Of a DNA stretch of 20,875 nt, positions 1,810 through 16,802 are shown piece after piece (the first letter of the stretch is position 1; each line of letters opens with the position of its first letter). The notes beneath the pieces are model-generated. The model was given only the letters and a program-made list of their open reading frames with translations. It was not told the DNA's origin and did no database searches. The stretch spans positions 1 through 20,875 of the IMG/VR virus record IMGVR_UViG_3300030406_002221. One strand, given 5' to 3'. Made by a program: the position numbers and the translations under genes. Source of the stretch: a virus.

Positions 1810-1837
1810 TTGACAAATTGAATAAAATGTGCATACT
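1810..1837 (+). promoter_or_regulatory. Sigma70-like promoter for the zinc-knuckle gene
   Basis: TTGACA at 1810-1815 is followed after 16 bp by CATACT at 1832-1837 (or ATACTA one base later). The transcript would begin around 1844, leaving a leader of about 15 bases that carries the AGAAAGG ribosome-binding site (1844-1850). A 7-bp inverted repeat (CAATTTG 1790-1796, CAAATTG 1814-1820) overlaps the -35 and could be an operator. The layout matches the promoter at 2376 (same -35, same 16-bp spacing). Confidence 0.65.
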
Positions 1838-1858
1838 AATATTAGAAAGGAAAATAAA

Positions 1859-2101
1859 ATGAAACAAAAAAGAAAAGTAGAATGTCCTGAGTGTGAAGGC
1901 AAAGGTAGAATACCTATATGTCCTGAACCTAGGTACGATGAGTGGGAAGAGTGTCCTGTATGTGAAGGGCATGGTTCTTGGTTAGAAGAGTATGACCCAC
2001 AAGACGATAAGTATTTAATAGATGATGAGTATCTTGAAACAATGAAAAAAGATATAGAAGATACTCTCATTGAACAAGTTAGAAAAGAAAGGATTATATA
2101 A
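1859..2101 (+). CDS. Small protein with two DnaJ-type zinc knuckles (80 aa)
   Basis: Two CxxCxGxG motifs (CPECEGKG near residue 9, CPVCEGHG near residue 32) are the four-cysteine knuckles of the DnaJ central zinc-binding domain, which binds zinc and unfolded or partner protein. The J domain and the substrate-binding part of DnaJ are absent. The second half is an acidic helix (DDKYLIDDEYLETMKKD). The frame is open from 1829, but AGAAAGG at 1844-1850 selects the ATG at 1859. A sigma70-like promoter lies directly upstream, and the next gene overlaps by one base. The same knuckle pair is inserted in this phage's DNA polymerase. A role in replication protein assembly is possible but is inference. 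Confidence 0.85.
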   Translation: MKQKRKVECPECEGKGRIPICPEPRYDEWEECPVCEGHGSWLEEYDPQDDKYLIDDEYLETMKKDIEDTLIEQVRKERII

Positions 2102-2413: not shown

Positions 2414-3208
2414 ATGGAATATCAACATCAATTAAAAGCAATTCAAACCCTTAATATTGAGAAGGGTGGGAGTTATAGGGGTGATTGTATGTTCTGTTTG
2501 AATAGAAACACCTTGTCAGTTAGAAATGAAAATGGTAAATTATTTTGGAATTGTTTTCATGCTAACTGTGATGCTAAAGGTATGGCTAACAATGGTGTAA
2601 CCATAGATGACTTACAAACTTTTATGGATAGTAAAAACTCTTCTCATGATATCCCTCTTAAATTTACTATCCCCAAAGAGTTTGTAACAGTCTATGGTAA
2701 TAACAAAGCAAGAGAATACATCAGCAAGTATGAGTTGGAAGACACAGAGGCTAGATTGATGTATGATGTAAAACAAGATAGAATAGTTTTCCTCATAGAA
2801 AATAATGGGGAAGTTGTCGGTGCGGTAGGTCGTGGCTTGGCTGATGACACAATTCCAAAATGGTATAAGTATAATACTTGTCATTACCCTTTCGTGGCAG
2901 GTAATAATAAATATGTTGGTGTTGTCGTGGAGGATTGTGTCTCAGCCAGTAAAGTTGCACTTGCTAATCTTACTGGAATAGCTATCATGGGTACAAGTTT
3001 AAAAGAAGAGTTTATAAAACCTATAGCTGATATTATAGATAGATGTTTTGTTTGTTTAGATAAAGATGCAACAGAAAAAAGTTTTAAGATAAAAGATACT
3101 TTGTCTTATCATATTCCTACTTATGTTAAGATGATAGATAAAGATTTAAAATATTATAGTGTTAAAGAGTTAAAAGAATGGGGTGAAAAATTATGCGAGA
3201 CTTTATAG
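2414..3208 (+). CDS. DNA primase: zinc ribbon plus Toprim domain (264 aa)
   Basis: It synthesises RNA primers for the lagging strand. The N-terminal zinc ribbon has CMFC (C25, C28) and CFHANC (C47, C52), which in T7-type primases read the priming site. A Toprim-like core follows, with the metal-binding acidic residues visible as E173 (VVVED) and the D216-K-D218 pair (CLDKDA), plus a preceding segment (VVGAVGRG near 134) like that of T7 gp4. At 264 residues it is about half of T7 gp4: the helicase half is absent and sits in a separate gene at 4259. The start at 2414 lacks a ribosome-binding site, but no alternative Met precedes the first zinc cysteines, and the promoter ends just upstream. It heads the replication module. 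Confidence 0.88.
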   Translation: MEYQHQLKAIQTLNIEKGGSYRGDCMFCLNRNTLSVRNENGKLFWNCFHANCDAKGMANNGVTIDDLQTFMDSKNSSHDIPLKFTIPKEFVTVYGNNKAREYISKYELEDTEARLMYDVKQDRIVFLIENNGEVVGAVGRGLADDTIPKWYKYNTCHYPFVAGNNKYVGVVVEDCVSASKVALANLTGIAIMGTSLKEEFIKPIADIIDRCFVCLDKDATEKSFKIKDTLSYHIPTYVKMIDKDLKYYSVKELKEWGEKLCETL

Positions 3209-4258: not shown

Positions 4259-5515
4259 ATGGAAGACGGAAACTTAAAACTATATGTTTTAAAAATAATA
4301 TTAAAAAAGAAAGTATTTGATAGAGTAAAGAAAATTGTATCAGATTCTTTTTTTGTAAATGGTGGCAGAGATATATACAAAGCCATATCAAAAATATACG
4401 AGGATAATCCTGGGATAGAAGAGATAAGTATTGCTGATTTAAGAATCAGTTATTTTGAAACATACTTTGCAAATCAAAGTTATCAAGCACAAAAAAATAT
4501 AAAAGATTTAATTAGTAGGATAGAACATATCCAAGACATGAATGATAGTGTTGTAGAAAATGCTATCAAGAGTATGTATAAATCATCTAAAGCAGATGAG
4601 ATGTCAAGACTATGTATAGCTATTGGTAACAATCCTAGTGAGCATAGTTTTAAAGAAGTACAAAGATTTCTAGAAACTATTGATGAGGAATACTTTGATA
4701 CAGTTGATGATACTTCAGTTACTAAAGATGTAGATGAAATAATAGAAGCAGTAAATCAACAAAGAGAATTTAAGTTTAATATACATGCACTACAAAACGC
4801 TACAGAAGGTATTGGTAAAGGTAATTTTATGATTGTTTTTGCTAGACCTGAAAGTGGCAAGACTGCCTTTTGGGTTAGTATGGTAGCAAATGAAGGAGGC
4901 TTTGCGTGGCAAAAAAAGAATGTTCATATTTTTTGTAACGAAGAACCTGCTATCCGAACACAAATGAGAATGTTAAACGCATGTAGTAATCTAACCAAGA
5001 GGCAGATATTAAATGGTAGTAGGCAATTAGCCAAAGACAAGTGGCAAGAAATACAATCTTATATTTATACTCACGATAGTGTTGATATGAATATGGAGGA
5101 TTTAAATACCTATTGTAAAGAGCATGATGTAGATATATTAATCATAGACCAATTAGATAAAGTCAATGTAACAGGTAAATATAATTCGTCTCATGAAAAA
5201 TTAGGTGAGGTATATAGACAAGCTAGAGAGATTGCAAAAAGACATGATGTGTTTGTCATAGGATTATCTCAAGCGTCAGCAGAGGCACATGGTAGAACAC
5301 GATTAAGTTTTAATGTTATGGCTAATTCTAAAACGGGCAAAGCTGCGGAGGCAGATGTTATTGTAGGTATAGGAAAATTAGATGAGGGTAGAGAAGACCC
5401 TAACGAAGCATGTGTAAGACAGATAACTATTTCTAAAAATAAACTAACAGGAGACCACGGTGAGTTCGAAGTAAGACTAGTTCCCACCTTGTCACAATTC
5501 ACTTCATTTACATAG
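4259..5515 (+). CDS. DnaB-like replicative helicase (418 aa)
   Basis: This is a hexameric RecA-fold helicase that unwinds DNA at the fork. Walker A is ARPESGKT (195-202), with Ala in place of the usual first Gly. Walker B is DILIIDQ (292-298). The catalytic Glu is probably E228 or E229 (CNEEP), and the Gln sensor is in GLSQAS (335-340). Near the C-terminus, ISKNKLTGDHGEF resembles the DnaB-family end strand with its Arg/Lys finger region. Residues 1-150 form a helical N-terminal part with no primase motifs, so the primase at 2414 must act with it as a separate protein. AGAAAGG at 4247-4253 sets the ATG at 4259. The polymerase starts 13 bases after its stop. Confidence 0.9.
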   Translation: MEDGNLKLYVLKIILKKKVFDRVKKIVSDSFFVNGGRDIYKAISKIYEDNPGIEEISIADLRISYFETYFANQSYQAQKNIKDLISRIEHIQDMNDSVVENAIKSMYKSSKADEMSRLCIAIGNNPSEHSFKEVQRFLETIDEEYFDTVDDTSVTKDVDEIIEAVNQQREFKFNIHALQNATEGIGKGNFMIVFARPESGKTAFWVSMVANEGGFAWQKKNVHIFCNEEPAIRTQMRMLNACSNLTKRQILNGSRQLAKDKWQEIQSYIYTHDSVDMNMEDLNTYCKEHDVDILIIDQLDKVNVTGKYNSSHEKLGEVYRQAREIAKRHDVFVIGLSQASAEAHGRTRLSFNVMANSKTGKAAEADVIVGIGKLDEGREDPNEACVRQITISKNKLTGDHGEFEVRLVPTLSQFTSFT

Positions 5516-5527
5516 AAAGGACAACAA

Positions 5528-7564
5528 GTGATAACTACATTAGATATAGAAACAACCATAAGTAGTGAGGGAGACCCTTCACCTTTTAATCCACATAATA
5601 GATTAGTTAGTATTGGTATCAACGATGAATACTTTTTTTTCTATCATAAAGATGTAAAAGATGTAGAACAGATAAAAGATAACATGGCTAAAGTTCAAAA
5701 GATATTAGATGAGTCTACTTTAATTATTGGACACAATCTAAAGTTTGATATGTCATGGATGTATGAGTTTGGATTTAAATATAATGGTAAACTTTATGAT
5801 ACTATGTTAGCAGAATATATTATTATGAGAGGTAACAAAGATAAATCACTATCTCTAAAAGAGTGTTGTAGAAGACATAACATAAGTTTAAAATCTGATA
5901 TATTATCTACATACATGGAAGACGGATATGGTATTGATGAAATACCTTTGGAACATTTAGAGACATATGGTAGACAAGATGTTAAGATTACAAAAGAATT
6001 ATATCTTACACAAGTAAGATTTTATAATTTACCTGCGAACAAAGGACTGATACCTACTAGGGATTTGATGAATGATTTTCTACAGGTTCTAATAGACATG
6101 GAGTGTAATGGTAATCATATTAACTTAGAGGATTTAAATAGTGTTGAGAAAGAACTGACTCAAGAATATTATAAATTAAAAAATAAAATTGATAGAATCA
6201 TAGCACAAGTTATGGGTGATACAAAAATTAATTTGTCATCTACAGAGGATTTATCAAAAGTAATATACTCTAAGAAAGTTCAAGACAAAAGTATTTGGAC
6301 TAGCATGTTTAACATTGGTATAGATAAAAGAACTAAAAAAGCAAAACGAAGACCAAGAATGACAGACAGAGCCTTTCAAGAATTAGTTAATAAATATACT
6401 GACCCTGTATATAAAACAATAGCACAACAATGTGGTGATTGTAAAGGCGTTGGTCATGTTAGAAAAATAAAAAAAGATGGTAGTCCTTTTGCTAAACTAT
6501 CTAAATGTTCTAGATGTAAAGGTGAAGGTATGCTATTCATAGAGACAGAGGCTAGAGCAGGATTTAATTGGAAAGCTAACAGTGTACAAGATGTGGCACA
6601 GGGTGGTTTTAAAACTGATAAAGATACATTAAATAGAATAGGTATTTATGCAGAGGGTACACTAAAAGAATTTATAGATTGTATAATTAGATTTGGTGCG
6701 TTAGAAACATACCTTAATACATTTATAACAGGCATAAAAGATAATACAAACTTTGATAATATACTACATCCTTCTTTTAATCAACACATAACTACCACGG
6801 GTAGATTATCTAGTTCTAAACCTAATTTCCAAAACATGCCCAGAGGTGATAAGTTTCCTGTAAAAAAAGTTATACAATCTAGATTTGAAAATGGTCAGAT
6901 AATAGAAGTAGATTTTGCACAGTTAGAATTTAGAACTGCGGTGTTTTTGGCACAGGACAAACAAGGTATGGAGGATATTGAAAATGGTGTTGATGTTCAT
7001 CAGTATACTGCAGATGTCATAGGTTGTGATAGACAAACTGCAAAGGCACATACATTTAAACCTTTGTATGGAGGCATGATGGGTAAGAAAAAAGAAAGAG
7101 AGTATTATGAAAAGTTCTTAAAAAAATATCCACAGATAGCAGAGTGGCATCAGTTCTTACAAGACAGAGCATACAAAACAAAAATAGTTAAACTACCTAG
7201 TGGTAGAGAATATTATTTTCCAAATGTTTACAGAAGAAAAGATGGGTCCACTACACAAGCTACTGCTATAAAAAATTATCCTGTACAAGGATTTGCTACT
7301 GCAGATATAGTTCCTATTGCATGTTATAATGTTTGGGAGTTATTAAAAAAAAGAAATATGAAAAGTTTATTAATAAATACTGTACATGACTCTGTAATAT
7401 TAGATGCACATCCTGATGAAATACATCATGTCATTAGTATTATAAAGACAGGATTTAGTAATGTTAAGGACTCACTACTAAAAAGATATGATTGTGAGTT
7501 AAATGTTCCATTAGATTTTGAGATAAAAAAAGGTCAAAATTGGCTTGACTTATCCACAGTTTAA
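5528..7564 (+). CDS. polA: Family-A DNA polymerase with 3'-5' exonuclease and DnaJ-type zinc insert (678 aa)
   Basis: Replicative polymerase. Exonuclease residues: D6/E8 (LDIETT), D74 (GHNLKFD), D151 (YGRQD). Polymerase motif A: VDFAQLEFR with D462. Motif B: R502, K506, F510, Y514-G515. Motif C: VHDS with D621, where the usual HDE Glu is Ser. The residue matching E. coli Pol I F762 is F510 (Phe). Between the two domains, CGDCKGVG (302-309) and CSRCKGEG (327-334) form a DnaJ-type zinc pair, an insert I recall from HMO-2011-type phages. There is no 5'-3' exonuclease domain. The start codon is GTG at 5528, just after AGAAAGG (5514-5520); the exonuclease motif begins five residues later, so no later start is possible. 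Confidence 0.95.
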   Translation: MITTLDIETTISSEGDPSPFNPHNRLVSIGINDEYFFFYHKDVKDVEQIKDNMAKVQKILDESTLIIGHNLKFDMSWMYEFGFKYNGKLYDTMLAEYIIMRGNKDKSLSLKECCRRHNISLKSDILSTYMEDGYGIDEIPLEHLETYGRQDVKITKELYLTQVRFYNLPANKGLIPTRDLMNDFLQVLIDMECNGNHINLEDLNSVEKELTQEYYKLKNKIDRIIAQVMGDTKINLSSTEDLSKVIYSKKVQDKSIWTSMFNIGIDKRTKKAKRRPRMTDRAFQELVNKYTDPVYKTIAQQCGDCKGVGHVRKIKKDGSPFAKLSKCSRCKGEGMLFIETEARAGFNWKANSVQDVAQGGFKTDKDTLNRIGIYAEGTLKEFIDCIIRFGALETYLNTFITGIKDNTNFDNILHPSFNQHITTTGRLSSSKPNFQNMPRGDKFPVKKVIQSRFENGQIIEVDFAQLEFRTAVFLAQDKQGMEDIENGVDVHQYTADVIGCDRQTAKAHTFKPLYGGMMGKKKEREYYEKFLKKYPQIAEWHQFLQDRAYKTKIVKLPSGREYYFPNVYRRKDGSTTQATAIKNYPVQGFATADIVPIACYNVWELLKKRNMKSLLINTVHDSVILDAHPDEIHHVISIIKTGFSNVKDSLLKRYDCELNVPLDFEIKKGQNWLDLSTV

Positions 7565-7597: not shown

Positions 7598-8422
7598 ATG
7601 TCAAATGAAGTACTAGCGGATATAGATAATATGTCCAACGATAAAGTGATGGCTATGTTAGGTCAAGATGTAGAGTCGGGTGGCTCTTCACTATCAAGGC
7701 TATCAATTAACTACGATACGGAGGATAGCGAAGGCAATCTGATAAAACGAGGTCTATATAAAATAGACAGTCAGAAACATGGTCTGGTCTTTGCAGAGAA
7801 AGTATCATTCAGACCATTCTTAAATACCTTTCAATATAATAAATATGATGAAGAGAATGAAGATAACAATTACAAATCTGTCATGTTTACTAGTTGGTCG
7901 GATGCAAAACCTGATACGAATGGAACTGACGCATGTGGTAGTGTACCTAAAGCGTTACGAGAAGACTTAGACCCTGCTTCTAAAATAGAACAGGATAAGG
8001 TTACTTGTTATAGAAATGTATTTGGTGTGGTATCTGCAAAAGGAAAAACCTCTAAAGGACAGGATGTCACAATTACAGAAGAGCCAGTCCTATATAGAGT
8101 TAGAGGCGTAAACTTTTTACCTATAGGTGACCAATTAAAAAGTCTATCTAAAAGAAATAAAATTATGTATAATACTGTTCTAGATTTTAATGGTACAGAA
8201 AAACATACGAAAGGTAGTGTTACTTACTTTACTGCTAAAATAAAAGATGCTAATAAAGATGTAAAATTTTCCGATACAGATAAACAAATACTAAAAGATT
8301 TTTTAGATTATGTTAAACAAGAAAATGATTATGTCAAGGCGGAGCATGACAAAGCAAAGAAAAGTGAAACTACTGCAGAGGATATTTTAGATGATGAAAT
8401 AATGAAGGAAGTTACCGCTTGA
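7598..8422 (+). CDS. Possible single-stranded DNA-binding protein (274 aa)
   Basis: I do not recognise the sequence with certainty. It sits between polymerase and nuclease, where T7-like phages keep their ssDNA-binding protein (gp2.5). It has its own strong promoter and strong ribosome-binding site (AAAAAGGAGG), as expected for a protein needed in large amounts. It appears beta-rich with many aromatic residues in the first 200 residues (GLYKIDSQKHGLVF, SFRPFLNTFQYNKY). It ends in a long Lys-rich helix and an acidic tail (AEDILDDEIMKE), like SSB C-termini that recruit partners. One Cys pair (near 113 and 137) has no zinc pattern. The assignment is inference from context and tail. Its stop overlaps the next start (TTGA). 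Confidence 0.5.
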   Translation: MSNEVLADIDNMSNDKVMAMLGQDVESGGSSLSRLSINYDTEDSEGNLIKRGLYKIDSQKHGLVFAEKVSFRPFLNTFQYNKYDEENEDNNYKSVMFTSWSDAKPDTNGTDACGSVPKALREDLDPASKIEQDKVTCYRNVFGVVSAKGKTSKGQDVTITEEPVLYRVRGVNFLPIGDQLKSLSKRNKIMYNTVLDFNGTEKHTKGSVTYFTAKIKDANKDVKFSDTDKQILKDFLDYVKQENDYVKAEHDKAKKSETTAEDILDDEIMKEVTA

Positions 8423-9318
8423 CTTTCTTAGAAGAAGTAAAATCATTTTTAGCACAGGCTCAACGAGAGCCTGTCGCTATACCTAAACCTATTATAAATA
8501 AATTTAAAGATGAATGTGAACAAGCAATAAGGAAACAATTTACAGACAAAAGAGAATCAAAGTTTAGAATAAGAATGTCTAACATTGGCAAACCTTTATG
8601 TCAATTACAAATGGACAAAAAGTATTCAGGTAAGAATAGTATAATTAGTTATGAGAATTATAATTTTAAATTAAGAAATTTATTTGGTGATATAATAGAG
8701 GCAGTAGTTGTAATGTTGCTGAGAACTGTAAAGGCAAAAATAAAAGGTGTTCAAGGTAATGTAAAACTAAATACAAAATTTTTTGATATGAAAGGCACAT
8801 ACGATATAATAATAGATGATAAAGTTTATGATATAAAATCTGCTTCACCTTTTGCGTTTGAAAAAAAGTTTGGAGAAAGTGGTGGTGGTTTCCACAAAAT
8901 AGCAGAGGATGATGTCTTTGGATATTTATCTCAAGGATATTTATATTCAGAAGCCACAGGTAAACCCTTTGGTGGTTGGATTGTAGTTAACAAAGCCACA
9001 GGCGAAATGTTAGTTAGTCAGCCTCCCGAGAATGACACAGAGTATAGGAAGAAAGCATTAGATAAAGTTCATCACAATGTAAAAGCATTAATGGAAGATG
9101 CGCCTTTTGAAAAATGTTATGATTTAGAAGAAGAAGTTTTTTATCAAAAGAAAACAGGTAATAAAGTTTTAGGTACGGTTTGCTCTTATTGTCCATACAA
9201 ACATAAATGTTGGGGTGATAACATTGAATACTTGCCCCAACAACAATCAAAAGCAAAGAACCCTAAATTTTATTGGTATGCTGAAATAAACAGTCCAAAG
9301 GAAGTAATACATGATTAA
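8419..9318 (+). CDS. Cas4/AddB-like Fe-S PD-(D/E)XK exonuclease (299 aa)
   Basis: This is a DNA exonuclease that probably resects ends for recombination or degrades host DNA. Active-site residues are E94 (FGDIIEA), D129 (KGTYD), D138-I-K140 (the D-x-K motif) and Q172..Y176 (SQGYLY), which is the RecB/Cas4 order. Four cysteines, C61 in the N-terminal part and C255, C258, C264 near the C-terminus (CSYCPYKHKCW), match the 4Fe-4S cage of Cas4 and AddB. There is no CRISPR array nearby, so it is a replication nuclease rather than a spacer-acquisition protein. The start is TTG at 8419, overlapping the previous stop as TTGA, with AAGGAAG 8 bases upstream. The next in-frame ATG (residue 53) would remove a large part of the fold. 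Confidence 0.82.
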   Translation: MTFLEEVKSFLAQAQREPVAIPKPIINKFKDECEQAIRKQFTDKRESKFRIRMSNIGKPLCQLQMDKKYSGKNSIISYENYNFKLRNLFGDIIEAVVVMLLRTVKAKIKGVQGNVKLNTKFFDMKGTYDIIIDDKVYDIKSASPFAFEKKFGESGGGFHKIAEDDVFGYLSQGYLYSEATGKPFGGWIVVNKATGEMLVSQPPENDTEYRKKALDKVHHNVKALMEDAPFEKCYDLEEEVFYQKKTGNKVLGTVCSYCPYKHKCWGDNIEYLPQQQSKAKNPKFYWYAEINSPKEVIHD

Positions 9319-11699: not shown

Positions 11700-14600
11700 T
11701 TAAAATCCTCCTATTCCTAGTTCTACTGATTTATCATATATTTCTTGTTCGTCTTCTGTTACCCCACCTCTTTCCATTTGTTGTGTAAAGGTAGATTGCA
11801 TATTATCTAACATTCTTTTTATAGAGTTATGTAATTCTTTAGGGTTTTTAAATTTATACTTTTCATATGCATAGTCATACATCCATTGTTGCCATGCTTC
11901 TTCAATATTACCATTAAATTTTATATATGCCTCTGCCATCATCTGTACAAAATCTGACCTGCTCATGGATTCGCTACCCATTTTTCTTTTCATCATATAT
12001 TTAAATGTCATCTTTTTAGACTCTTCCAAACTTCTCATTGATAAATATTTTCTAGTAAACCAGTCTTTATCTTCTCTTATTATATTTTCTGTTTTACTTT
12101 GAATATAAAAAGGATTATCATGATTTTGATACCAACTTTCTATCCATCCATGCAGTGATGTTGGAGTAACTTTTTTCCATGCATCTCTAACATCTGATGT
12201 AGCAGGGGGTGTATAATCTAATAATGGTTTTCCTGTTAATTCTTGTGATGCTTTGTATAAAGTATAATATCTACTTAATTCAAATACACCTGCCGTTGCA
12301 TTTAATGCAAATTCAAAACTAGGAAAATTAATTACTTCGGTAGGGTCTGTAGTTGGAGCCATTAAAGAATTACTCATATCTGCTTGTAATGTTGTTGATG
12401 GTGCGCCAAATATAAACACATCAGGTAATCCAGACTTAATTAAAAAATCACTAAGGGTAGTATTAGCACCCATTAGTTTCATTACAAAATCTACAAATGT
12501 AACACCTACAACCCCTTTTAATCCACCAAAAAAGGCTTGACTTGCTATAAAGTTAGCTAGTTGTGTTGTTTGACCTTTTGGTATTGGAACAGGTAATCTT
12601 TGCTTTCCTATTTTTAATCTTTCAAATTGTGCTTTTTGTATTGCTTCTAGCATTTGACCATACCAATTATGTGCATATGTTTTAAATAATCCTGCAGGTT
12701 TAGATATAGCACCCACCCAATTAAACATCATAGGTCTATTATAAGCATGATACTCGACCATTCTTTGATTTGCTATGTAAGGTGCTTGTTTTATTACAAA
12801 CTCTTTACTGTAACCTAAAGACAGCATATGTTCACCTATAATATTTATAGCTTGAAGTCTTGTAAATTTTTCCATAAAACCAACAGGTATTTTACCATTA
12901 ACAAAGTTTAATGCTTTTTTACCTGCAAGTTTTGCATTTATTTTTCCTTGAGAAAAATATGTATCTCCTAGAAATTCTCTTAACATAGCCTCTGTTATAA
13001 CTTTTTGTCGTACTCCAGATTTAGCTAATGCTATATTAAACTCTGTAGGTTTTAATGTACGCAACATTCCTAGTGCAGTAGAATAGTATGCATGAGCAGT
13101 AGCATCCACCATGTTACCACCTCTAACTTCTACAGTCATACCTGCTAATTTATGTGGTATCATTTGCAAAGGTTGTATTCCTTGTAACATAATAAATCTA
13201 GGATTTAATGCTAATAAGAAAAATATGTTAGCATAGTTTGCTGATTTACCATACCACTTACTTACAAAATTTTCTATTGTAGTTCCTTCAGGACTTTTTC
13301 TTAAAGTTTCTACTATCTTATTAATCGGTAAACCTACAGCATTATCTTTATACATACTAGCAAATTTAAAATCTTCAGGGTATAAATCTGCTATAGTTTT
13401 TTGTCCTCTAGGTCCTGTGATAAAATTACCATCTTTACCTTTACCAATAGGTGTAGTATAAAAATCTGTAAACTCTCTAGCTAATTTTATTCTTAACGCA
13501 CTTTGAACACCACCACTAATATAAGTTGTCACAGCTTTTTTAAAATCTTCTACTCTCTTTCTAGGACTTCCAAATGTTCCAAGATAACCTGCAACTTGTT
13601 TTCCTGTTCTTTTTATTTTTTGTACATTAAATCCTCTTTGTAAGTATAAATTATTAACTGCTTTATCTAATGCATCTATGGCTTTTTTGTTAGATTTATT
13701 TCTTACAACTAAATTCATAACATCTTGAAATACTTCTGCAGATATATCTTTTACTTGACTTTCTTGACTAGAACGAATATTTATTTTTAAGTCTTTAGCA
13801 GGTACAGTAACACCGTCTACCTCAACACCTTTAGACATTAGTTTTCTAATTGCATTTGCCTCTCTTAAATTAGTAGCACCATATACACCTAATAAGTCAC
13901 CTTTAGTATTAGATACAAATACTTTATATTCTCCTATGTATATTCTTGGAAAATAGTTTGGTCTTCTGTTTATCTTTGATAAATTAGTACCATAGTTAAC
14001 AACATGTTGATTATAAAATTTTTGTAATCCATCAAAAGCTAATTGTATATCTTTCATAGCTTTTACTTCTGCTTTATTTAATCCAAAAGTATCTATATAT
14101 CCTGGTGTCGCTTCGCCTGATTTGCTATCAAATCTAACATCTTCTTTTCTTTGGTCTTTTGTTAATTTTCTATACAGAGTATATTCTGCATCTAATGTAG
14201 CCATTGTTTCTACTACTTTAGCCTGACTATTTATTGGTAGTTTTTCAAATGCAATAATACCAATACCTTCAGACGGTCTTAATTCTGTATATCTTAAAGG
14301 GCTATATCCTTTTATTTTATCTGTAGTTCCTATAGTTTTAAATGCCATAGGATTTTCTAAAAATAATTGTGTCATGTAAGCAACTTGATTATTGTAGTTA
14401 CTTACTAAATCTATACCATATTTAGCTACAGGATAATCTCCTAAAAATTTTGCAGGTATTACATACTTTCTAACACCTCTAGCCATTGCATCTAATAAAT
14501 TTGCAAACTGACTTTCGTGTTTACCTTTCTGCATATGCTTAGTATTTCTTCTAAGTTGTGTTACAGTTTCTTCTTTTTTATCATACTTACCTGTCTCTGT

Positions 14601-15893
14601 ATTTTTTCTTTTTTTAATGACAGTTGCATCAACACCTTTTACTAATAAATTTCTAGCTTCTGTTGGTGTTAGTGCAGAAACCATATCAAAGTCTCTCATA
14701 AACTTTGTAGCAAATAACTCATTGTCTCTTAACACAGCACTTAAAGTGTCCATAGATTTTTTTAATTTACCTTTTTCTACATTAATACCTCTTATAGTAG
14801 TTTTATTATTTTCTATGGTTGTGTTTATTTGATTTTGTTTTTCTACATTTTTTGTTCTAATCTTTTGTTTTTCTAATTTTGCATTTTGTATATTTAAATC
14901 TGTTATCTGTCTTTCATATGCTGTATGTTGGTCTATTATTGCAGCCATAGATTTATGTGTCTCATTAACTGCTTTTTCTGCTTTTTTTATATTTATTTGT
15001 TGGTCTATGACTGCTTTAGTTTTATTTACTAATGCGTCTGTAGCAATATCTAATTTACTTTTGTTAGTTAATTTAGGACCAAATATTCCTAATATTCCAA
15101 ATGTCGTAGCATTTGCTATTCTTTGTTCACCATCTTCTGCAGGACCTGCTGCACCCATAGCTGCCATACCTGTAACTCTTGTAGGTATTGCAAATTGATT
15201 TAGTTGTTGTAGAAATTTACCCATCAATGCACCCTCTGCACCTGCAAACCCTACTCTTTTTGCATACTCCATCTGAGATTCACCTTCTCTTTTTTCAGAT
15301 TCGAGTAACATATTAGTCAATGCAAAACCTGCCATAGGACTTCTAGTGGCTATTGTCGCAGGTGTATATAAAGCAATTACTCCTGGTGTCTGAACTATAC
15401 CTTGAATAACTTGAGATGTAAATCCAGAACCTGCTTTTTTCTGTGCTTCTAGTTGTTGCTTTTCATCTAATTCTTTTTGGTCTTTATGAAAGTCGTACCA
15501 TGCCATCATAGCACCCTTAAATTTACTATCTTCTTTTTTAGGGTCAAAGTTTTTTTCTCTAGATTTTTTCATGTCCTCTAGCTCTAAAAACTTTTCAGGT
15601 ATATTAGCAAATAATTGATTTGCCATTGCACTATATCCATTCCAACCTGCTACAGGAGCATATCTATAAGTTTTAGCAACATTAGTTCCTATGTTAGTTG
15701 CAGCGTCTATTACATTTTTTCCTTTTTTAATAATAGACTCACCAATACCAATAGACTCATCATTAAGTTCTTTTTCTTGCTCTAACTTAATTTTAAGATT
15801 ATCTTCGTATTCTTTTGCCTGTGCTTTTATTTCTGATAAAGGTGTACCTTCAGGAAATCTGACAACCACACCATCAGACATTTTAACATCCAT
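11700..15893 (-). CDS. Giant internal virion / DNA-ejection protein (1397 aa)
   Basis: It has the size and position of T7 gp16-type core proteins that leave the capsid to form the DNA-ejection channel. The N-terminus (SDGVVVRFPEGTPLSEIKA) resembles the short lead motif of many phage internal or polyvalent proteins. Hydrophobic Gly/Ala-rich stretches lie near 155-270. A long coiled coil covers about 295-380, with repeated Gln/Asn/Lys heptads. Another hydrophobic, membrane-active-looking stretch lies near 885-915 (FFLLALNPRFIMLQG). I see no lytic transglycosylase motif, unlike T7 gp16. It follows three smaller virion-type genes and precedes holin and endolysin. AGGAGA sets the ATG at 15893. Function is inferred from size, order and composition. 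Confidence 0.7.
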   Translation of the reverse strand: MDVKMSDGVVVRFPEGTPLSEIKAQAKEYEDNLKIKLEQEKELNDESIGIGESIIKKGKNVIDAATNIGTNVAKTYRYAPVAGWNGYSAMANQLFANIPEKFLELEDMKKSREKNFDPKKEDSKFKGAMMAWYDFHKDQKELDEKQQLEAQKKAGSGFTSQVIQGIVQTPGVIALYTPATIATRSPMAGFALTNMLLESEKREGESQMEYAKRVGFAGAEGALMGKFLQQLNQFAIPTRVTGMAAMGAAGPAEDGEQRIANATTFGILGIFGPKLTNKSKLDIATDALVNKTKAVIDQQINIKKAEKAVNETHKSMAAIIDQHTAYERQITDLNIQNAKLEKQKIRTKNVEKQNQINTTIENNKTTIRGINVEKGKLKKSMDTLSAVLRDNELFATKFMRDFDMVSALTPTEARNLLVKGVDATVIKKRKNTETGKYDKKEETVTQLRRNTKHMQKGKHESQFANLLDAMARGVRKYVIPAKFLGDYPVAKYGIDLVSNYNNQVAYMTQLFLENPMAFKTIGTTDKIKGYSPLRYTELRPSEGIGIIAFEKLPINSQAKVVETMATLDAEYTLYRKLTKDQRKEDVRFDSKSGEATPGYIDTFGLNKAEVKAMKDIQLAFDGLQKFYNQHVVNYGTNLSKINRRPNYFPRIYIGEYKVFVSNTKGDLLGVYGATNLREANAIRKLMSKGVEVDGVTVPAKDLKINIRSSQESQVKDISAEVFQDVMNLVVRNKSNKKAIDALDKAVNNLYLQRGFNVQKIKRTGKQVAGYLGTFGSPRKRVEDFKKAVTTYISGGVQSALRIKLAREFTDFYTTPIGKGKDGNFITGPRGQKTIADLYPEDFKFASMYKDNAVGLPINKIVETLRKSPEGTTIENFVSKWYGKSANYANIFFLLALNPRFIMLQGIQPLQMIPHKLAGMTVEVRGGNMVDATAHAYYSTALGMLRTLKPTEFNIALAKSGVRQKVITEAMLREFLGDTYFSQGKINAKLAGKKALNFVNGKIPVGFMEKFTRLQAINIIGEHMLSLGYSKEFVIKQAPYIANQRMVEYHAYNRPMMFNWVGAISKPAGLFKTYAHNWYGQMLEAIQKAQFERLKIGKQRLPVPIPKGQTTQLANFIASQAFFGGLKGVVGVTFVDFVMKLMGANTTLSDFLIKSGLPDVFIFGAPSTTLQADMSNSLMAPTTDPTEVINFPSFEFALNATAGVFELSRYYTLYKASQELTGKPLLDYTPPATSDVRDAWKKVTPTSLHGWIESWYQNHDNPFYIQSKTENIIREDKDWFTRKYLSMRSLEESKKMTFKYMMKRKMGSESMSRSDFVQMMAEAYIKFNGNIEEAWQQWMYDYAYEKYKFKNPKELHNSIKRMLDNMQSTFTQQMERGGVTEDEQEIYDKSVELGIGGF

Positions 15894-15902
15894 GTGTGTC
15901 TC

Positions 15903-16802
15903 CTATATTGTTTCGCCAGTATAAGGTGGATTTTCGTCTTCATTCATATCCATTAACTCTGCAGAAGATATTGGGTCTTGATTACCCGACATTACTACAG
16001 GAGTAATAGGTATTTTACTTTCTAAAACTACATTATAATATTTGTTAATAATATTTGTTTTATCTATTGCAGAAGAGTCAGGACTAACTAACATATTATA
16101 ATCATCCTGAAAACTTTGCTTTAAAGTTTGGTCACCTTCAAAACCTATACTGTCTGCACTTGTACTTAAATATCCTAGTATATCTGCTCGAGTTACTTTT
16201 ATATTTAAAGGCATAGGTGTAATAGCTTCAAATCCACCCTTCACAACATCAGGTGCTGTTAATGCAGGTGGGTCAAAGTCTACAAGCTCCTCTTGTCTTT
16301 CTCTAATATTTGTTGGTGGCTCAAACATAAACTTTGCTAAAAAGTTTTTTGTATCTTGACCCATGTTGTTTTTAGAAACTAATCCGTTATTTATTTTACT
16401 TTGATTTACATCTGCTACAAATTTATTTTGTGCAACCTTAGTATAATCTTCATAACTATTTTTTGTTTCATCATCTAAATTTTCAAAATTTTTCTTTAAT
16501 GTAGCAAATGCTTCATTTCTATTTTCAGGAGACATTGCTTGAAGAGCAGCAATATATTCTATATCTTCTGTAGCAAATATATAATTAGCAAAAGTTCCAC
16601 CACCTACATTACCACCTACTTGTAAAGCTGTATCATAAGTGTCTTTAAAACTTGCTACTTCTTCGTTTACTTCTTTATTTGCTAGTTCTAATGTTTCTAT
16701 TCCTTTTTGACCAATGGTTCTATTTTCATCCATACGAAAAAGTAATCTTCTACCGCCACCGATAGCAGCGTCTCTTAAAAATTTAGAACTTAATAAACTC
16801 AT
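15903..16802 (-). CDS. Probable internal virion protein (299 aa)
   Basis: I do not recognise the family. The ATG at 16802 overlaps the previous stop (TAATG), with AAGGAG upstream. The N-terminus is basic with a Gly patch (AAIGGGRRLLFRMDEN). A helical region follows, with a Gly-rich segment (GGNVGGGTFANYIFA). The second half is Pro/Asp-rich (VDFDPPALTAPDVV, TPMPLNIKVT) and the end acidic (MDMNEDENPPYTG). Its position next to the 1397-residue protein suggests it is a partner in the internal core or ejection complex, comparable to T7 gp14/gp15, which is inference. Confidence 0.65.
   Translation of the reverse strand: MSLLSSKFLRDAAIGGGRRLLFRMDENRTIGQKGIETLELANKEVNEEVASFKDTYDTALQVGGNVGGGTFANYIFATEDIEYIAALQAMSPENRNEAFATLKKNFENLDDETKNSYEDYTKVAQNKFVADVNQSKINNGLVSKNNMGQDTKNFLAKFMFEPPTNIRERQEELVDFDPPALTAPDVVKGGFEAITPMPLNIKVTRADILGYLSTSADSIGFEGDQTLKQSFQDDYNMLVSPDSSAIDKTNIINKYYNVVLESKIPITPVVMSGNQDPISSAELMDMNEDENPPYTGETI

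Follow-up and report, generated by a model that had tools for sequence, protein, structure and literature searches.

The gene at positions 5528 to 7564 (+) of the window, that is, of the whole stretch of DNA analysed here (a virus record of 20,875 bases), encodes, judged from its sequence, a family A DNA polymerase that replicates the genome of a marine phage of the HMO-2011 type, and alignment together with structure modelling locates its cysteine-bearing insert within the thumb, where helices H1 and H2 flank it. This insert is already known as a hallmark of HMO-2011-type polymerases and is not new; what is added here is the precise point at which it enters the thumb, how this differs from the T7 polymerase, a conserved basic loop and a testable idea of DNA grip. 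The reading that we prefer, with a probability of roughly 0.5, is that the insert forms a one-zinc beta-ribbon that extends the grip of the thumb on DNA and so would raise processivity.

Position of the insert in the polymerase

The gene has a GTG start and encodes 678 amino acids, with Pfam matches to DNA_pol_A (PF00476, 1e-51) and DNA_pol_A_exo1 (PF01612, 3e-10). The 3'-5' exonuclease domain (5528 to 6037, +; residues about 1-170) retains the motifs D6/E8, N70/D74 and Y147/D151, and the region comprising thumb helices H2 and I, the palm and the fingers (6608 to 7561, +; residues 361-678) retains motifs A (D462), B (K506, Y514) and C (H620-D621). In an alignment of 188 polymerases, made up of the present one and 187 related ones found on viral contigs or in isolates, these exonuclease residues and R426, D462, K506, Y514 and D621 of the polymerase domain were present and conserved. 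The sequence-only reading that preceded this analysis had held that the polymerase is otherwise intact and the insert no decay product, and the catalytic residues, all in place and conserved, bear this out. A decay product or a chance motif was ruled out by the intact motifs, by shuffling and by conservation. The AF2 model of the whole polymerase, built from 57 sequences for the protein chain alone, reached a mean pLDDT of 90, with the blocks of the insert mostly at 85-94, and its best matches among solved structures were Pol I large fragments and Pol theta.

The order of elements in this model was H (200-229), H1 (239-247), the insert (248-361), H2 (365-374) and I (378-405). Helices H and H1, the latter INLSSTEDLSKVIY, are encoded at 6125 to 6268 (+), as assigned from AF2, phmmer and the alignment with Klenow 570-594, and the insert is encoded at 6269 to 6610 (+), as assigned from AF2 and alignment. 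Residues 226-250 (ending KINLSSTEDLSKVIYSKK) aligned with Klenow 570-594, and residues 358-403 aligned with the thumb of the insert-free StenR_269 polymerase; in both comparisons, 0 of 1000 shuffles scored as well. The length of the insert was about 100-114 amino acids in nearly all relatives. The insert had been described as lying between the exonuclease and polymerase domains, both in the papers and in the sequence-only reading, but this placement has to be corrected, since thumb helices H and H1 precede the insert and H2 and I come after it; the wording probably arose because the main Pfam match begins after the insert.

The gp5 protein of T7 is likewise a replicative family A polymerase with a basic thumb insert, and the site of its thioredoxin-binding domain (TBD) was at first expected to be that of the present insert. 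This was ruled out by the AF2 helices and the published helix positions of T7 gp5, in which H1 spans 339-348, H2 spans 365-372 and the thioredoxin-binding segments lie at 269-302 (PMC9198812). The T7 TBD thus precedes H1, between H and H1, whereas the present insert follows H1, so that the two occupy neighbouring but distinct sites. The argument for different sites is built on Klenow, the published T7 helices and AF2, because MAFFT misplaced T7 around the insert region and because T7 on its own gave no significant result in the segment test. The T7 insert also differs in lacking cysteine knuckles and in its dependence on thioredoxin from the host, and no sequence similarity was seen between the two inserts.

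Long extra segments between the same two thumb helices were also found in the PolAs of Andromeda, MEP401 and ICP2, where they differ in length and sequence and, by eye, have no cysteine pairs. The H1-H2 junction of the thumb may therefore be a general insertion hotspot of phage PolAs.

Cysteine knuckles and predicted fold

The two CxxCxGxG knuckles lie exactly where the earlier reading had put them. Knuckle 1 (CGDCKGVG; 6431 to 6454, +) covers residues 302-309 as C302xxC305xG307xG309, and knuckle 2 (CSRCKGEG; 6506 to 6529, +) covers residues 327-334 as C327xxC330xG332xG334. In composition-preserving shuffles of the polymerase, one CxxCxGxG motif arose in 0.05% and two in 0 of 200,000. The Pfam family DnaJ_CXXCXGXG (PF00684) matched residues 299-336 at 7e-5 with 23.4 bits, which is under its gathering score of 32.7. 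A lack of cysteine conservation among relatives had been set beforehand as a possible refutation; C302, C305, C327 and C330 were identical in 188 of 188 polymerases, a sample biased towards finger bearers, as some of the search patterns sat within the insert. Invariant alongside the four cysteines were G309, G318 and G334, and the gap between the CxxC pairs was 21 residues in all but one of the polymerases (187/188). Both full CxxCxGxG motifs, however, were present in just 106 of the 188, with G332 replaced in many relatives, and the invariant unit is therefore the four cysteines and not the full motif.

Modelled alone with AF2, the insert gave a pLDDT of 92.7, with strands at 295-301 and 335-343 flanking the knuckles. 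The top Foldseek matches were DnaJA2, BSD2 and the zinc finger of DNAJA3, the match to DnaJA2 extending over 40 columns with an rmsd of 2.2 A and a weak E value of 0.13, and VIA-align gave a low best Z of 4.8; such low scores follow from the small size of a zinc ribbon. The insert profile matched residues 26-64 of the E. coli DnaJ zinc domain (1exk) with an E value of 0.0067 and, more weakly, phage Q antiterminators. Since repeats II and III of DnaJ together form one zinc site, the polymerase finger is predicted to be a one-zinc version, in which the four cysteines would bind a single zinc.

The CxxCxGxG pairs and the predicted ribbon fold are like those of repeats II and III in the cysteine-rich domain of DnaJ/Hsp40 proteins. 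DnaJ/Hsp40 has four repeats, two zinc sites, a J domain and a substrate domain, whereas the polymerase insert has two repeats, one predicted site and neither of these domains; a Pfam search of the polymerase at E values up to 1 gave no match to a J domain with its HPD motif. The polymerase is not a DnaJ. Ribbons of similar topology occur in lambda Q, UvrA and anti-TRAP, which gave weak structural matches; these are not in polymerases, and common ancestry is not claimed.

Basic loop, proposed DNA grip and alternative roles

The loop between the knuckles (6455 to 6505, +; residues 310-326, including the invariant G318) carries a net charge of +5 in the present polymerase. Among 79 representatives under 90% identity, the net charge of this loop averaged +4.6 (range +3 to +9), and positions 313, 315, 316 and 326 were basic in 85-95%. 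On average, the insert had a net charge of +8.5, the exonuclease domain one of -11 and the remainder of the polymerase one of +1.6; for the finger as a whole (294-344), values as low as +1 occur among relatives. Template DNA becomes crosslinked to T7 gp5 within segments that cover H1, 6c, 6d and H2 (PMC9198812), and the T7 and human mitochondrial polymerases hold their processivity factors by means of thumb inserts (PMC7699545).

From this we infer a contact of the insert with DNA and a role in processivity. The insert of about 110 residues would fold into a compact module with a beta-ribbon as its core, and this ribbon would be pinned by one metal site formed by C302, C305, C327 and C330, as in DnaJ repeats II/III. 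At the thumb tip, the metal-pinned ribbon would present the lysine- and arginine-rich loop 312-326, which could touch the backbone of the primer-template duplex as this duplex emerges from the active site. The polymerase would then stay on DNA for longer and be more processive, with the ribbon acting within the chain as thumb-bound thioredoxin does for the T7 polymerase. Klenow fragment without the thumb tip has lower DNA binding and processivity. A DNA-gripping extension of the thumb is favoured because the insert and its loop are basic, because the H1-H2 segments of T7 crosslink to DNA and because of this effect of the Klenow thumb tip. It is suggested more tentatively that the ribbon is a built-in, metal-held processivity clamp, which would reach the DNA from another helix junction than the T7 TBD and would need no host factor.

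A conserved basic surface would suit docking to an acidic partner equally well. The ribbon could then serve as a platform for a replisome component, such as the DnaB-like replicative helicase encoded directly upstream (4259 to 5515, +; PF03796 at 4.5e-23, phrog_19 at 8.7e-53), which is a candidate partner of the polymerase, or, through its acidic tail, an SSB-like protein whose gene follows directly downstream (7598 to 8422, +). The strongly basic insert is compatible with such docking, and the downstream protein, a candidate ssDNA-binding protein, belongs to a family conserved in other HMO-2011-type phages; among the representatives in which its ORF was found (68 of the 79), the last 25 residues had a net charge of -3 or below in 93%, and in the HMO-2011 clade the tail reaches about -10 over the last 20 residues. 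The T7 SSB tail binds the TBD in the thumb of gp5 (PMC7699545), and each polymerase-helicase pairing is reported to be exclusive to its own phage group (PMC8528129). Nevertheless, profile searches of the downstream protein against T7 gp2.5, Enc34 SSB, Pfam, PHROGs and PDB gave no match that would identify it as an SSB, its tail in the present window is only -5, which is unexceptional among the proteins of the window, and across relatives the tail charge does not offset the insert charge (r = +0.49). Docking is regarded as the main rival to DNA grip, a credible but rather unlikely role of the insert.

Less probable still is a purely structural role, in which the metal site would stabilise a long H1-H2 insertion that touches neither DNA nor a partner. 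The H1-H2 site evidently tolerates insertions, because other phage PolAs, those of Andromeda, MEP401 and ICP2, carry varied long inserts there. However, such a role leaves unexplained both the conserved basic loop (313, 315, 316 and 326, with the invariant G318) and the retention of the finger without loss across very divergent members. Lastly, a chaperone role, in which the DnaJ-like domain would bind unfolded protein or bring in the DnaK of the host, has been alluded to in published work by comparison with lambda replication but is very improbable: the sequence does resemble DnaJ repeats II/III, but the J domain, which is the DnaK-stimulating part of DnaJ, was not found by Pfam at E up to 1 in the 678 amino acids, only two of the four repeats and one predicted metal site are present, and the same ribbon occurs in the non-chaperones lambda Q, UvrA and anti-TRAP.

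No functional test of the insert of an HMO-2011-type polymerase was found in the literature searched. With its placement between H1 and H2 and with one conserved basic loop, the "unusual domain of unknown function" is now open to a simple mutational test. If the insert does raise processivity, as the DNA-grip reading proposes, it would have solved independently a problem for which T7 borrows thioredoxin from its host, and might perhaps serve in the engineering of polymerases. Phages of the HMO-2011 type rank among the most abundant in the ocean (PMC9038755); if the clamp reading is true, this highly abundant marine group would replicate its DNA processively with no processivity factor from the host.

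Relatives and neighbouring genes

The polymerase shares 53% identity with that of HTVC033P, a phage of SAR11 (Pelagibacter) and the nearest isolate, 41% with that of HMO-2011 and 38-41% with those of the Roseobacter phages CRP-1 to CRP-738. Altogether, 12 isolate records matched at 38-53% identity over 97-100% of the length, and beyond them identity was about 30% or less. The values are within the threshold for HMO-2011-type membership (identity to isolates of 25% or more across 80% or more of the length), and the polymerase has the other defining features, namely a family A polymerase with a 3'-5' exonuclease and two CXXCXGXG motifs. HMO-2011-type polymerases (HMO-2011, CRP-1/2/3, HTVC033P) have the same domain order and the two knuckles in the same place, and their phages share the primase-helicase-polymerase gene order of the present sequence, in which a DNA primase-like protein is encoded at 2414 to 3208 (+; phrog_47 at 1.7e-15). 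No essential difference was found, and the present polymerase is a further member, near the side of pelagiphage HTVC033P; polymerases 100% identical to it are already in IMG/VR.

The partial DnaJ domain with two CXXCXGXG motifs was described in 2019, 2021 and 2022 in papers that cite the genome report of HMO-2011, and over 2000 polymerases of this type have been reported (PMC6918029, PMC9038755, PMC8528129). The domain serves as a criterion for HMO-2011-type polymerases (PMC9038755, PMC8528129). The statement in the sequence-only reading that HMO-2011 has the same arrangement, and that it is a lineage marker, agrees with the shared knuckles and with the use of the marker in the literature (PMC9038755, PMC6918029, PMC8528129). 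Some genomes, however, are reported to carry Cobavirus-like structural genes together with a replication module of the HMO-2011 type (PMC8528129), and because of these mixed genomes the finger marks the replication module and not a whole phage lineage.

A tblastn search with the insert alone against 50,697 phage records returned just 12 HMO-2011-type records and weak partial matches in Aeromonas phages. Cysteine pairs in the thumb were absent from the nearest out-group polymerases, those of MEP401, QDWS535, ICP2, StenR_269, Vibrio 1.209.O and Andromeda. A single origin of the finger was considered and not adopted; the tree of the shared domains groups all bearers on one side of a branch, with weak support (60/36).

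HMO-2011-type polymerases were also seen on contigs filed as bacterial or archaeal, mostly marine MAGs and one single-cell-style assembly, and these are probably infecting or contaminating phage DNA. In MEP401, QDWS535, ICP2 and two metagenome contigs, the family A polymerase is encoded in two ORFs, with the split just after TGRLSSS and before motif A; in MEP401 the halves are separated by a small ORF.

Downstream of the polymerase and the acidic-tailed protein, a Cas4-domain-type exonuclease is encoded at 8419 to 9318 (+; PHROGs phrog_1990 at 1.8e-24). The virion-side gene at 11700 to 15893 (-) encodes a protein of 1397 amino acids, which had one weak match in Alcaligenes phage QDWS535 and 10 loci in IMG/VR but no match among HMO-2011-type isolates, and the protein of the adjoining gene (15903 to 16802) had no phage match at all. 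A chimeric structural module, considered because the 1397-amino-acid protein had no HMO-2011-type match, was dropped, as a virion-side protein of 480 amino acids matches HTVC033P at 62%. At 1829 to 2101 (+), a separate small protein of about 80 amino acids, likely starting at the ATG at 1859, also carries two CxxCxGxG knuckles; it gave just weak partial matches in the phage collection and was found on 14 related contigs near replication genes.
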